Origin: Bacillota bacterium
GTDB taxonomy: Bacteria > Bacillota_I > Bacilli_A > Erysipelotrichales > Coprobacillaceae
NCBI GenBank assembly: GCA_030540195.1
Contig: JAUNWT010000002.1
Location: 1 to 64,000 of the forward strand
Direction: 5' to 3'
Length of the DNA stretch: 64,000 bases
Shown here in pieces: positions 22,895 through 52,739 of the stretch (position 1 is its first letter; each line of letters starts with the position of its first letter). The notes under the pieces are model-generated. The model had not been told where the DNA came from. It worked only from the letters and a program-made list of their open reading frames with translations, and did not search any database. Both the position numbers and the translations under genes were made by a program.

Positions 22895-23160
22895 AAAAAA
22901 ACCGTCTTGAAAGTTAAACTTTCAAGGACGGTTATATCCGCGGTGCCACCTTGATTCATGATTATAAAATCATGCCCTTAGCTAGATGCTATCACATCTA
23001 CGACTACTTACGTAAGCCTAACGTCAAAGAATACTCAGCCAAAGCCTTTCCTTTTGCCCTCAGTGGTCCATTTAATAGCCTGCGTTCTGTTTGCTTCCAC
23101 CATCCAAACTCTCTATAAGTGCACGATCTATTTTTATCTCCACTTCATCGGTTTTTACTT
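22895..23160 (-). ncRNA. T-box leader (tRNA-Trp sensing) of the trp operon
   Basis: On the minus strand the T-box core AAGGTGGCACCGCGG (22938-22952) is followed by a terminator with CCGTC...GACGG arms and seven T (22895-22931). Upstream is stem I with a distal GGATG-type loop and, on its 3' side, AAATGGACC; I read UGG (23068-23070) as the specifier codon, as expected for a trp operon. Uncharged tRNA-Trp would favour the antiterminator and transcription of trpE onward. This accounts for the 354 bases between trpE and proC. Confidence 0.93.
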
Positions 23161-24046: not shown

Positions 24047-25126
24047 AATTCTTCTATTTTTAATAAATGCTGGTGGAAAACCATCATCATCGTCATCGTC
24101 ATCATCAAATGAATCATAAGTTTGAGGTTCATCACCTAATGGTTTTGCGACAGAAGGTTGTACTGTAACTTCTTCTTTTTCTTCTTCAAATCCAGTTGCA
24201 ATAACTGTAACGATGATTTCATCATCTAAGTTTTCATTAATAGCGATACCTAAATATGTGTTAATGTCATCCCCAACTTCTTGAGTAATTGTTTCAAGGG
24301 CAATATTTGCATCATATAATGAAATATTTGGTCCACCTGTAACATTGATAATGGCATCTTTAGCTCCAGCAACAGAGACTTCTAATAATGGTGAAGAGAT
24401 AGCACGTTTTGCAGCTTCTTTTGCTTTATCATCACCAGAAGACATACCAATACCAATTAAAGCATTTCCTCTATTTTTCATAACCGCACAGATATCTGCA
24501 AAGTCAAGGTTGATAAATGCTGGAACAGCAATTAAGTCAGTAATTGTTTGAACACCTTGTCTTAAAACATTGTCAGCTTCTCTAAATGCTTCTTGCATTG
24601 GACGACCACCAATTAATTGTAATAAACGGTCATTTGAAACAACGATAATACTATCAACATTTGCACGTAATTCATCAATACCTTCAATGGCTTGCTTTTT
24701 ACGTTTCATTCCTTCAAAAGTAAATGGTTTTGTAATAACTCCAACAGTTAACGCTCCAAGTTCACGGGCAATTTTTGCGAATACAGGCGCAGCACCTGTT
24801 CCAGTTCCACCACCCATACCAGCAGCGATGAAAACCATATCAGCTCCTTCTAAAGCTGTTCTAATATCTCCTTCAGATTCTAAAGCAGCTTTTTTACCCA
24901 TTTCTGGATTACCACCTGCTCCTAAACCTTTTGTTAAATCTTTTCCTAAAACAATTTTATTTTCAACTGGTGAACGACGTAAAACTTGTACATCGGTATT
25001 AGCGACATAAAATTCTACTCCTCTTACACCTTCTTCAACCATTCGATTGACAGCGTTGTTTCCTCCACCACCAACACCAATGACTTTTATTTTTGCTACT
25101 TGTTCAAAATCTAATTCTTCGTTCAT
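24044..25126 (-). CDS. ftsZ: Cell division protein FtsZ
   Basis: A 360-residue tubulin-like GTPase that forms the division ring. The N-terminus has [13 protein letters not shown] at 17-29. The tubulin signature GGGTGTGA is at 105-112, and the synergy loop has [15 protein letters not shown]. The linker is very short. It ends in eight consecutive aspartates (341-348) and runs straight into the conserved C-terminal peptide [11 protein letters not shown] (350-360), which binds FtsA and SepF, both encoded in this window. It lies 19 bases after ftsA. Confidence 0.98.
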
Positions 25127-25145: not shown

Positions 25146-26408
25146 TTATTCTTCTTCTCCAAAGAAAGTATCAAGTAATCTACTGAACCTTCCAGTTTTT
25201 TCCTTTGTATCTTTTGTTTTTGTTAAACCTTTAAATTTTACAGCCATTGTATTTGAAATATCTGGTAAAACAACAGACGTTTCATAAGCCCCTAAATATT
25301 TAGCACGGTCAGACATATAGAAAATCATACCTACTGCCGAAACAAATGCCATATCGCGGATCCCTATAATATCTGGTCGATAAACTCTTACAGGTCCTTC
25401 TAAAACTTTTCCTGCAACCTTATCTAACATTTCAAGTTCACCGCCACCACCAACGATCAAGGTTTCATAATGACCACCATCATCGATGATTTTTAGCTTT
25501 TCTTTAATTACATTTAAAACATCAACAGTTGCTTCTTCCAAAATATGCGCAAAATCTTTTTGTGTATAATCTTTTCGTCCATCAGGTAATTCTGTTGAAT
25601 GAATAATATCTTCTTGCCCTATCGTATAATCCAATGAACCATATTTGATTTTATAAGCTTCTGCTTGATTCATTGAGATTTGCAAGTTTTGAGCAATCGC
25701 TCTTGTCAAGTTATATCCACCAACGGAACATACTGTTAAATATTTCAAATAACCATCTTTATAAAAAGAAATTGTTGAAGTTTTATATCCCATATCAATC
25801 AACACAGCACCTTCTTGAAGATAAACGGTATCAAATGCTTCTTTTGCACATGCAAATGCATTAACACAAATATCCATAACTTCTAAACCTGCTTTTTCTA
25901 CAGCCATAATATATGGATAGAGTATATGTTTTTGTGAAGTAATAACAAGTGTATCTACAATTAAATTTCTTGATGATTCACCAATTGGTGGTTGATTACT
26001 GATTCCAAAATCACCATTAAATTTAACAGGAATAACACATACAACTTCTTCTTCAGAAGATCTTTTGAATTTTGTGGATAATTTTAATCCTCTCACAATA
26101 TCATCTTTTGTTATTTTTGCTTCATGATTTAAAGAAACAGTACTATTACTTTGATAGAGTTTTGAACGAATTGTTGGAATCGTTAAACCGATTGCTTTAA
26201 TTTCTCCTTCAAGAAATTCATTAGCTTCTTGGACAACCGCTTTAATATCATTTACCAATAAACGCTCATCTTCAATAATACCTTTTTTTACACCATGACT
26301 TGGGACTTTTTTTGAAAAAAGCACATGCAAATTAGAGTTCATAATTTCGCCAACAAGTAATTCAATTGTTGCACTACCTATATCTAACACTGCATAAACT
26401 TCATTCAT
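25146..26408 (-). CDS. ftsA: Cell division protein FtsA
   Basis: A 420-residue actin-like protein tethering FtsZ to the membrane. It has phosphate-1 motif VLDIGSATIELLVGE at 6-20, an SHS2/1C domain (about 85-165), phosphate-2 AVLIDMGYKTSTISFYKDG, and the adenosine motif LIVGGGGELEMLDKV. The C-terminus KTGRFSRLLDTFFGEEE contains an amphipathic helix fitting the membrane-targeting sequence. It heads an ftsA-ftsZ pair with an AAGGGGAG ribosome-binding site; a hairpin separates it from divIB. Confidence 0.96.
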   Translation of the reverse strand: MNEVYAVLDIGSATIELLVGEIMNSNLHVLFSKKVPSHGVKKGIIEDERLLVNDIKAVVQEANEFLEGEIKAIGLTIPTIRSKLYQSNSTVSLNHEAKITKDDIVRGLKLSTKFKRSSEEEVVCVIPVKFNGDFGISNQPPIGESSRNLIVDTLVITSQKHILYPYIMAVEKAGLEVMDICVNAFACAKEAFDTVYLQEGAVLIDMGYKTSTISFYKDGYLKYLTVCSVGGYNLTRAIAQNLQISMNQAEAYKIKYGSLDYTIGQEDIIHSTELPDGRKDYTQKDFAHILEEATVDVLNVIKEKLKIIDDGGHYETLIVGGGGELEMLDKVAGKVLEGPVRVYRPDIIGIRDMAFVSAVGMIFYMSDRAKYLGAYETSVVLPDISNTMAVKFKGLTKTKDTKEKTGRFSRLLDTFFGEEE

Positions 26409-37883: not shown

Positions 37884-37912
37884 AAAAAGAAAAGTACGAT
37901 TTCTCGTACTTT
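37884..37912 (-). terminator. Terminator after the Rpn gene
   Basis: Minus-strand AAAGTACGA/TCGTACTTT stem with a GAAA tetraloop and a TTCTTTTT tract. Confidence 0.8.
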
Positions 37913-38849
37913 ACTTACCTATTATTTTCTTTATTTCTTCTATGCTTTCATCATTTAACAGCTTATCAAAAATTTCATCATATTGTTTTTCTGTGAGATT
38001 TTCTAAATAACTTATATCTTCATTAGGATATTTCTTTTGATAGAATTTTACGACTTGTTCCTTGATCTTTTCTCTTTTTTCTTCTAATGCCTTTATTTTT
38101 TCTTCTTCTGCACTTTTCAACGCTTCCACTACTTTTTCGTAGTTTCTTTGTTTTGCCTTTTGTTGACTTTGAAATTTTGCGATGGCTAGTGCTTCATCTT
38201 TTAAGTCGTCATCTTCCATGAATTTATCATATTTTTTCTTCATGATTTGTCCCACCTTTGTCAGGTTTATTCTATCACATTCATTCCCTTTTTCAATTAA
38301 ATTGACAATCTCTTCTAATTCATTTAAGTTTTCTTCTCCCTTCTCTTCAATAATTCGATCGATTTCTTTCATAAATACAAAATACATATAAATCAAACTT
38401 CTTTGATTATCATGATATTTATTCCCTGTATTACTGAACTCCCTTACCAATTCATGATGTTCTTTATCATATTCATGATAAAGTACGATTTGATAAAATG
38501 GTTTGAGTTGATTGTAGTCATCTCCTTCTTCTATCTGTGTTGCAATATTTTTACAGGCATAGTATTGAAATCTTTTGAAGACATTTTCAAAATCATCATA
38601 GGCTTGGATCTCAATATTGACAGTTTCTCCATCATTTGTTTTCACTCTTACATCTAATACCGCTCTTTTTTCACGATAATGACTAGGAAGCAGTTCTGCA
38701 TTTTTTACATAAAGTTCTTTACACTTTAAAGGAGTTACTGCTTCAATAATTGTTTTTAATAAATACATGCAATCTTGATCTTCATTGTTGTAGACGAAAT
38801 ACTTAAATAACAGGTCATTATAAAATGGTATATTCTTTTCTTTATTCAT
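37911..38849 (-). CDS. Rpn-family PD-(D/E)XK nuclease / putative transposase-like protein
   Basis: A 312-residue protein. IPFYNDLLFKYFVYNNEDQDCMYLLKTII opens the Rpn/transposase_31-like fold. A PD-(D/E)XK core is visible as AVLDVRVKTNDGETVNIEIQ near 63-82 (Asp and Glu-x-Gln), followed by KRFQYYACKNIATQI. The last 110 residues form a long charged coiled coil (KAKQRNYEKVVEALKSAEEEKIKALEEKREKIKEQ) ending in YLENLTEKQYDEIFDKLL. Rpn proteins are RecA-independent recombination-promoting nucleases, often multi-copy; the true role is unsettled. It has its own AGGAGG site and terminator, and no repeats or target duplications were seen around it. Confidence 0.82.
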   Translation of the reverse strand: MNKEKNIPFYNDLLFKYFVYNNEDQDCMYLLKTIIEAVTPLKCKELYVKNAELLPSHYREKRAVLDVRVKTNDGETVNIEIQAYDDFENVFKRFQYYACKNIATQIEEGDDYNQLKPFYQIVLYHEYDKEHHELVREFSNTGNKYHDNQRSLIYMYFVFMKEIDRIIEEKGEENLNELEEIVNLIEKGNECDRINLTKVGQIMKKKYDKFMEDDDLKDEALAIAKFQSQQKAKQRNYEKVVEALKSAEEEKIKALEEKREKIKEQVVKFYQKKYPNEDISYLENLTEKQYDEIFDKLLNDESIEEIKKIIGK

Positions 38850-42208: not shown

Positions 42209-43672
<1,464 letters not shown>

Positions 43673-43686
43673 TTATATTCTTGCAT

Positions 43687-43692
43687 ATTATA
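43687..43692 (-). promoter_or_regulatory. -10 box of the first GH1 gene
   Basis: Minus-strand TATAAT 38 bases before the start; the -35 is weak (TAAAAC at 17 bases). I found no cre site or antiterminator sequence here. Confidence 0.45.
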
Positions 43693-43771
43693 ACTTATTA
43701 TTTGATAGAGTTTTATTTTTTTCATTATTGTAAAAAAACTTGACAAATATCTATTAAAAAATATATTCAAA

Positions 43772-44293
43772 CGGGTAATCAAATAATTTAGGGGTCTCAA
43801 CTTTGGGGGTTTACTTTAGGGGACAACTTTAGGGGGATGGACTTAAAAATTCATATTAAAGAATAGCAACTAAAAATTATCTCAATTAGTTGTTATTTTT
43901 TTATTATATTCAATTAAATAAAATTATATTACATTTTAAAAACAATATGTTAATAAGTTAATTACCACAAACTGTTCCATTCTATTAGATATTATTAAAT
44001 CGTCAAAAGTGCTTAGATATAGCCATTTTTCTTTTATTAAATATATTTTTGATCTAACAATTTATTTTAATAGCATACTTTATATTTCTAACAGTAGGAT
44101 GTTATTATTTTCTTATTTATGTAAAAAGAGAACAATTTGCATTTCGCATTTGCTCTCTCTTTTTATAAATTTTCTTGTAGTATTTTAGGTTGGCCCCTAA
44201 AGTGCCCCCTAACTTTTAACAGACTTTTTTCAAGCCCCCTAAAGTTGGCCCCTAAATAATTTGGCTTTTCCCCTAAATTATTTGGTTACCCCG
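43772..44293. mobile_element. 522-bp non-coding element with repeated inverted ends (MITE-like, IS21/Mu-type ends)
   Basis: Within the 678-base gap between the first GH1 gene and pfk, the two ends are inverted copies. Plus-strand 43772-43794 and the complement of 44270-44293 differ at only a few positions, ending in AAATAATTTAGGGG. Inside each end the core TTTAGGGG recurs every 13-30 bases. The left end has cores at about 43787, 43801, 43815 and 43828; the right end, complementary, has CCCCTAAA-type cores at 44194, 44205, 44235, 44249 and 44270. GC-rich G-runs stand out from a very AT-rich interior (43840-44180) with no open frame above 60 codons and two terminator-like hairpins (43862-43902, 44127-44163). 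Repeated transposase sites at both ends are known from IS21, Tn7 and Mu-type elements. The class assignment is inference; no target duplication was seen. Confidence 0.6.
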
Positions 44294-44326
44294 ATATTTA
44301 TTTCGTAACACCCTTTTTCATAAAAA

Positions 44327-45394
44327 TTATTCTCCAAAACTTACTCCCATCATTTTAGCAGATTGGATAACCTCTCCTTCTGGATCAACATATTTCAATT
44401 TACCTGCTGTTTCACTCAAAGGAATTGCCTTAATTTCATTTTTATCAAAAACAACAAGTTTTCCAAAATCATTTTTTAAAAGAAGAGTTGCTCCATACGT
44501 TCCAAAGCGAGTTGCCATAAATCGATCATAAGCACAAGGTTGTCCTCCTCTTTGAATATGTCCTGCTATAGCAACACGAATTTCATTTGGAATCAATTCT
44601 TGTAACTGATTTGCAAGTTCATAAACAACAGAAAGTCCTTGGCGGCTTGCCACTTTCGCTTTATATTTTTTCTTTGATAAAAGACTATCTTCTTCACTGA
44701 TTGCTCCTTCAGCACAAGCAATCAAAGTATACTCTTTTCCAGCTTTTTGATTTTCTTTAATTTTCTTGACAACTGCATGAATATCATAAGGAATTTCAGG
44801 AAGTAAAATAACATCTGCCCCAGAAGCAATCCCTGCTTGTAAACAAATATGTCCTACTTTGTGACCCATTATTTCTACAACAAAAACACGACTATGGCTT
44901 TTCGCTGTTGTCTCGATTTCATTTAAATAATTTGTCGCAATATCTACTGCACTTTGAAAACCAAAAGTATAATCTGTTCCCCAAGTATCATTATCAATTG
45001 TTTTAGGAAGTCCTATGACATTAAGCCCTTCTTGAGCTAACATATTTGCTGATTTCAAAGAACCGTTTCCTCCCAAAACAACAAGACAATCAAGTTTTAA
45101 TTTTTTATATGTCTTTTTCATAGCAGCTACTTTGTCAAAGCCATCTTCAATCACACGCATTTTTTTAAAAGGACAACGAGAAGACCCTAAAATTGTCCCA
45201 CCTATATTTAAAATATCTTCAAAATCACTTAATGACATTATTTTATATTTTTCATACATCAAACCTTGATATCCCTTTAAAAAACCAATAATTTCAATAT
45301 CTTTTTTTTGTTGATAAAGAGTCTTTACTAGTCCTCTCATCGTTGCATTAAGCGCCTGACAATCTCCGCCACTTGTTAGAATTCCAACTCTCAT
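44327..45394 (-). CDS. 6-phosphofructokinase, group III-like
   Basis: A 355-residue phosphofructokinase phosphorylating fructose-6-phosphate in glycolysis. The ATP-binding start is RVGILTSGGDCQALNA. GGNGSLKSA near 107-115 replaces the usual GGDGS; the glycine after it predicts ATP rather than PPi. GLPKTIDNDTWGTDYTFGF near 131-149 has the catalytic Asp and the PKTIDND form seen in PPi and mixed-type (actinobacterial-like) enzymes. VEIMGHKVGHICLQAGIASGADVILLPE and AGHIQRGGQPCAYDR complete the site. It lies 12 bases after ppk. It may be a paralogue of a main PfkA elsewhere. Confidence 0.88.
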   Translation of the reverse strand: MRVGILTSGGDCQALNATMRGLVKTLYQQKKDIEIIGFLKGYQGLMYEKYKIMSLSDFEDILNIGGTILGSSRCPFKKMRVIEDGFDKVAAMKKTYKKLKLDCLVVLGGNGSLKSANMLAQEGLNVIGLPKTIDNDTWGTDYTFGFQSAVDIATNYLNEIETTAKSHSRVFVVEIMGHKVGHICLQAGIASGADVILLPEIPYDIHAVVKKIKENQKAGKEYTLIACAEGAISEEDSLLSKKKYKAKVASRQGLSVVYELANQLQELIPNEIRVAIAGHIQRGGQPCAYDRFMATRFGTYGATLLLKNDFGKLVVFDKNEIKAIPLSETAGKLKYVDPEGEVIQSAKMMGVSFGE

Positions 45395-52113: not shown

Positions 52114-52295
52114 AAAAAAACACATCATCCTAAGGACGATGTGATCGCGGTACCACCTTAATTCGTATTTTCATACGCTCTTGAAATCTTAACGCGATTA
52201 ACGTCACCTTCTACTTAATTCAAAGGGCTACTCCAGAGTGATACATTATAATCTTTGTTACTGATTTTCACCAACCATCAGCTCTCTTAAAACTC
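52114..52295 (-). ncRNA. T-box leader (tRNA-Ile sensing) of ileS
   Basis: Minus-strand T-box core AAGGTGGTACCGCG (52146-52159) is followed by a terminator of CACATCGTCC and GGATGATGTG arms and seven T (52114-52143). Stem I lies upstream, and TGTATCACTCTGG offers AUC (52240-52242) as specifier, as expected for ileS. The leader starts only a few bases after the divIVA stop codon, so it is unusually tightly packed. Confidence 0.92.
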
Positions 52296-52297
52296 TA

Positions 52298-52303
52298 ATT
52301 ATA
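52298..52303 (-). promoter_or_regulatory. -10 box for the ileS T-box, overlapping the divIVA stop
   Basis: TATAAT on the minus strand includes the TAA stop of divIVA; transcription would begin near 52291, just at stem I. The -35 position (TAAATA) is poor. Confidence 0.45.
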
Positions 52304-52739
52304 AACTGTCTCCTTCATCGTATTTATCTTCATTAATTAAATTATAAACTTCTGATTGGTCAATAGACTCAAGGATATCTTTTGACATTTTTTCGACCGA
52401 AGCTCTAAATTTAACAGCTTGCGCTTTAAAGTCACTCATTTCATCTGATAATGAACGAACATACTCTAGCGATTCGCTCAGTATCATATTAGCATTCTTT
52501 TTCGCTTTGTCAATAAGTTCACTCGCTTCTTTTAGGGCAAGACGCGCAATTTCTTCATTTGTTTGTTCTTGGATGTTCACTCGATGCTGTAATAAGGACT
52601 TTTGTTTTTCTAAATGTTCATAGTCTTCTTTTAATTTATTTATTTGCTCATTTAAAGATTTGATTTCTCGGTCTTTTTGATCCATTAAATCATCGACCTG
52701 TTCTTTATTATAACCAAATAATTGTTTTTTTAATGGCAT
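52299..52739 (-). CDS. divIVA: Cell division initiation / polar protein DivIVA
   Basis: I choose 52739 (MPLKKQLFGYNKEQVDDLMDQ, 146 residues), with GGGGAG 8 bases upstream; the longer frame lies in the end of ylmH. The N-terminal domain, with FGYNKEQVDDLM, replaces the usual FRGYDxxEVDxFL lipid-binding pattern. Two coiled-coil stretches follow (about 22-60 and 70-130). DivIVA marks negatively curved membrane at poles and septa. It is slightly short and has a diverged N-terminus, but context (sepF, ylmH, ileS) makes the call safe. Confidence 0.88.
   Translation of the reverse strand: MPLKKQLFGYNKEQVDDLMDQKDREIKSLNEQINKLKEDYEHLEKQKSLLQHRVNIQEQTNEEIARLALKEASELIDKAKKNANMILSESLEYVRSLSDEMSDFKAQAVKFRASVEKMSKDILESIDQSEVYNLINEDKYDEGDSL

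Follow-up and report, generated by a model that had tools for sequence, protein, structure and literature searches.

We identified a 519-bp unit without a transposase gene in the window (the whole 64-kb stretch of DNA analysed here) which, with a probability of about 0.93, belongs to an ISL3-family lineage as a non-autonomous, MITE-like element. Its ends match those that surround an ISL3 transposase gene in the same draft genome (G000), the unit recurs with its interior at an unrelated site in a sister species, relatives with the same ends are flanked by 8-bp target site duplications (TSDs), and the repeated cores within its ends are selectively conserved. The borders (43773–44291) were fixed by comparison with other copies that have matching element borders, i.e., those on contigs C74, C56, and C3 of G000, the one in G041, and the TSD-flanked copies in G040 and G055. 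The single C on the left and the CG on the right just outside the termini belong to the flank, so that the initial annotation (43772–44293) had set the left border one base and the right border two bases too far out. The features of the unit and its ends are as follows.

43773–44291, + strand: whole element, 519 bp, probably a non-autonomous, MITE-like ISL3 element; termini GGGTAATC...GGTTACCC, matching other copies
43773–43794, + strand: left terminal inverted repeat GGGTAATCAAATAATTTAGGGG; 95% complementary to the right end and identical to the left end on C3
43787–43835, + strand: left array (core scan and end test); cores at 43787, 43802, 43815, and 43828, spacing 15, 13, and 13
43858–43901, + strand: hairpin adjoining the left array, putatively a terminator; −13.2 kcal/mol, z −5.0 against shuffles
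43874–44183, + strand: AT-rich interior; 89% identical in the G004 copy; no resemblance to the transposase gene detected
44120–44167, − strand: hairpin adjoining the right array; − strand fold −19.4 kcal/mol, z −6.4 against shuffles
44194–44277, − strand: right array (core scan and end test); cores at 44270, 44249, 44236, 44206, and 44194, spacing inward 21, 13, 30, and 12
44270–44291, − strand: right terminal inverted repeat GGGTAACCAAATAATTTAGGGG (− strand reading); common to C74, C56, G002, G004, G040, and G046

Nine inward-facing 8-nt cores, each TTTAGGGG or one mismatch away from it, are present in the unit, four on the left and five on the right, just as the initial annotation had described them. 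In a direct end test, which counted copies of the best 8-mer common to the two 130-bp ends and compared the result with 100 dinucleotide shuffles, nine inward (4 + 5) and no outward cores were found (shuffle mean 3.7, maximum 6; 0/100 reached nine). Exact copies of TTTAGGGG number 10 in the 64-kb window, seven of them within the element (chance expectation 1.2; 0/100 shuffles reached 10). Core positions are kept on the left in G002, G040, G055, and G041 and on the right in C74, G002, G004, and G040; across the TTTAGGGG lineage, identity was 93% in cores vs. 63% in spacers at the left end and 83% vs. 65% at the right end, and the arrangement is conserved across several genera. The outer inverted repeat, given as 23–24 bases in the initial annotation, was confirmed as such but measured 22 nt at 95%; it starts with GGGTA, while relatives start with GGCTA. 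ISL3 inverted repeats are about 15–39 bp long and start with GG, a description that the 22-nt repeat fits.

No ORF of at least 60 aa was found inside the element, consistent with its original reading as a non-coding, non-autonomous mobile element. The two hairpins are strong folds, and a hairpin is also visible in the autonomous C74 copy at the place matching 44120–44167; their description as terminator-like found no support in a terminator scan, which called neither of them. A structured RNA leader, named at the outset as a reading that would count against a mobile element, was rejected, as no Rfam family matched the 519-bp element and the only Rfam matches in the 64-kb window were two T-boxes elsewhere.

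The search of G000 for a complete element in which these ends enclose a DDE gene, as suggested in the initial annotation, led to contig C74. The C74 element is approximately 1.77 kb long, with its two matching ends about 1.7 kb apart; its right end is 95% identical to that of the 519-bp element over 110 bp and its left end 84% over 90 bp. Between these ends lies one long intact ORF (P0001, 471 aa as used here), which encodes an ISL3 transposase scoring above both curated cut-offs (Pfam DDE_Tnp_ISL3, PF01610, E 5.4e-36; NCBIfam transpos_ISL3, NF033550, 194 bits, cut-off 180). When solved structures were searched by sequence, none was found for this transposase. G000 also contains a 67-bp right-end fragment on contig C56, and contig C3 starts within a left end, 55 bp of which are identical to the left end of the 519-bp element. 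The same 8 bp, AATATTTA, lie outside both the C3 left end and the C74 right end, suggesting that C3 and C74 may represent a single insertion divided between two contigs of the draft assembly; the left end on C74 itself is 12–13 bp short, at the contig edge, and has a sequence unlike the C3 left end. Synteny could not join the two contigs, as the C3 region was absent from the relatives searched, and the evidence for this putative TSD is therefore the shared 8-mer.

Target duplications were observed in several relatives with the same ends. A 464-bp transposase-less relative of the same design in G041 is flanked by a perfect 8-bp TSD (TAAATCAT); an empty site for it was sought in the congener G010, where the flank was absent. 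In G040 (taken as Thomasclavelia cocleata), three of the left-end flanks each have an exact 8-bp counterpart among the right-end flanks, and G055 contains four such exact pairs, for a total of seven in the two genomes. Three autonomous close relatives (L162, L163, and L165) also have 8-bp TSDs. In L162 (G044:C1), which has TTTCCGGG-type ends, the right end is tandem-duplicated (25053–25074 and 25154–25175, 101 bp apart) and the TSD, AACTTTAT, is located outside the outer right-end copy, pointing to an element with a duplicated end.

Further ISL3 elements, with borders set by 8-bp duplications (by inverted repeats alone for L219), were compared for the structure of their ends. Those closest to the C74 partner also have arrays, with TTTAGGGG in G089, TTTTGGGGTC in G085, and TTTCCGGG in G044, and in a second branch the repeats are longer and follow the pattern TAAATTATCGTGGGG (e.g., three per end in G058); the core differs with the transposase (TTTAGGGG, TTTTGGGG, TTTCCGGG, and TCGTGGGG). 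Most multi-repeat elements scored 5–9 copies, reached by 0/100 shuffles; scores were weaker for L201, L203, and L217, which were reached by 9, 3, and 15 of 100 shuffles, respectively. Four elements with GGCTCT or GGTTGT ends had two copies, at chance level, and a fifth single-site element, L208, had three (reached by 1/100 shuffles). In a tree of 17 transposases, a small sample labelled with the ends in view, multi-repeat and single-site elements fell on opposite sides of one branch with support 100/99; L186–L195 and other relatives at 30–35% identity, with ends not fixable by TSD, were left out of this test. From these comparisons, multi-repeat ends appear to be characteristic of one ISL3 transposase clade, itself well supported, in the Erysipelotrichales. 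Three ISL3 relatives from other families of the class, L240 (G225), L241 (G423), and L242 (G230), seem by eye to have two to three repeats per end with other cores (AGGTGGTGGC and CTTGGGGT), a suggestive pattern at putative borders. No earlier description of multi-repeat or subterminal-repeat ends in ISL3 elements was found in the open-licence papers searched; ISfinder was outside this search, and such ends may have been described there or elsewhere.

Classical ISL3 elements (IS1251-like and lactobacillar) share with the lineage described here the transposase family, GG...CC termini, and an 8-bp TSD, the last of which has been reported for an element with an ISL3 transposase (PMC9782665). However, the classical, GGCTCT-ended members examined are 1490–1604 bp long and have a single site per end (GGCTCTTTGTCAA...), with array scores at chance apart from the weak three-copy signal of L208, whereas the 519-bp element has nine cores and no transposase gene. 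It resembles MITEs and other non-autonomous IS derivatives (e.g., the TIMEs of Tn3, PMC4133298) in being short, non-coding, and found at several sites, with terminal inverted repeats common to an autonomous element (C74), but differs from MITEs in its low copy number and in having arrays of sites instead of one terminal repeat.

The ends of Tn7, Mu, and IS21 contain several sites in the same orientation, in arrays that are unequal between left and right. This anatomy is also that of the 519-bp element, and the initial annotation had likened its cores to binding arrays for IstA, TnsB, or MuB-linked transposases; the corresponding rival is a Tn7/IS21/Mu-type miniature element with repeats that would bind TnsB, IstA, or MuA. 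The likeness goes no further than anatomy: the ISL3 transposase is the sole gene between the matching ends in G000, where no IstA/IstB, TnsB/TnsABC, or MuA/MuB genes (TnsB, MuA, or IstA with an ATPase partner) were found; the termini differ, being GG...CC, and are accompanied by 8-bp TSDs in relatives; and comparable arrays are found in other members of this ISL3 clade. We therefore give the Tn7/IS21/Mu assignment very little credence. A role for the array in the host would fit the hairpins and the location between the genes for glucosidase and pfkA, where it might bind a protein, insulate, or terminate transcription; however, the element was missing from this site in all relatives examined and was found at unrelated sites, which removes the initially envisaged case of a single copy conserved at one position in all relatives, and it has the ends of an insertion sequence. 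Such a role is highly improbable as the reason for the array's presence.

A derivative of the C74 insertion sequence formed by a single internal deletion, which then stayed put and never gave rise to a dispersing MITE family, would account for ends 84–95% identical to C74 and for the presence of only one complete transposase-less copy (the window copy) in G000. A tblastn search of the element with P0001 gave a best E of 8.2, however, and the interior was rejected as a remnant of the transposase gene. Moreover, a transposase-less copy on contig C12 of the sister species G004 is 88% identical over nearly the whole length (89% in the interior), lacks the outermost left bases, and has a neighbourhood unrelated to the window site, indicating that the unit disperses as such. 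Older truncated copies that include the interior edge are found at two further sites in the relatives (G003:C9/G004:C5 and G003:C34/G004:C7), and the dispersed copies predicted by the initial annotation were thus recovered, at a low copy number per genome. Because no relation of the interior to the transposase gene was detected, the unit is better described as a dispersing miniature element than as a fresh internal deletion, which we consider improbable.

At the window copy itself, no TSD was found at the corrected borders, in agreement with the initial annotation; the 8-bp flanks (ATTCAAAC and CGATATTT) contain no recognisable duplication. The insertion site differs from that of relatives, with two boundaries.

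43749–43772, no strand: left rearrangement boundary; blastn homology to the G003/G004 glucosidase upstream region stops at approximately 43749
44292–44327, no strand: right rearrangement boundary; G004 homology restarts at 44327, the pfkA stop codon

In G004, the gene order is glucosidase, response regulator with GGDEF output, second GGDEF protein, and pfkA (domains judged from sequence), so that G004:C34 97242–102378, as compared to window positions 42209–45394, includes a two-gene GGDEF locus of approximately 3.5 kb between glucosidase and pfkA. Both GGDEF genes are missing from the window, where the element occupies the glucosidase–pfkA junction, while in G003 a remnant of the first GGDEF gene, 92% identical, is left at this site, suggesting that the site has been rearranged; the second GGDEF gene has an ortholog in G004 only, among six genomes of the genus. 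The difference may reflect either loss in G000 or gain in G003/G004. The missing TSD is best explained by this rearranged site, at which the duplication may have been lost, and not by age, which the initial annotation had left uncertain together with the exact borders. A simple insertion in which the 8-bp duplication decayed by mutation, without any rearrangement or loss of flanking genes, is possible but the less likely account: G000 may have branched off before G003 and G004 separated, and the GGDEF genes would then be a gain of that pair and not a loss here, but the two flanks share no recognisable duplication although the outer repeats have kept 95% complementarity, and the GGDEF remnant is retained in G003 at the same place.

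For the ISL3 reading of the unit, we propose that a C74-type ISL3 transposase, supplied in trans, would bind the repeated TTTAGGGG cores, pair both ends, and cut at the GGG/CCC termini, with insertion duplicating 8 bp of the target. As the unit has no transposase gene, it can move only if an ISL3 transposase comes from elsewhere; judged from sequence, binding of the transposase to the cores and present-day mobility of the element are both plausible. By analogy with Tn7 and Mu, several molecules of the transposase most likely occupy each end, across the four sites of the left array and the five of the right. The 519-bp lineage may also pass through a circular intermediate of the kind reported in other ISL3 elements (PMC3812183), and the hairpins inside both arrays, visible in the autonomous element too, may stop transcription entering from outside. 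We lean towards the view that multi-site ends, asymmetric and Tn7/Mu-like, have arisen in an ISL3 clade of the Erysipelotrichales, and probably more widely, and are read by a single transposase, with a core that drifts with the transposase, and that the miniature element keeps its 4 + 5 arrangement because all sites would be needed for end pairing. If pairing through arrays is true, multi-site end recognition would extend beyond Tn7, Mu, and IS21 to a system with a single protein; core swaps across the matched series of cores and transposases could then reveal the DNA-recognition code, with the 519-bp unit as a minimal substrate. ISL3 elements occur widely among Bacillota and may have resistance genes as cargo (PMC3812183).

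Elsewhere in the window, an ORF of 312 aa (37911–38849, − strand) resembles, by eye, a PD-(D/E)XK (Rpn-type) transposase-family protein. The two T-box leaders are both located on the − strand (22921–23157 and 52129–52327); the latter immediately precedes an ORF that resembles isoleucyl-tRNA synthetase.
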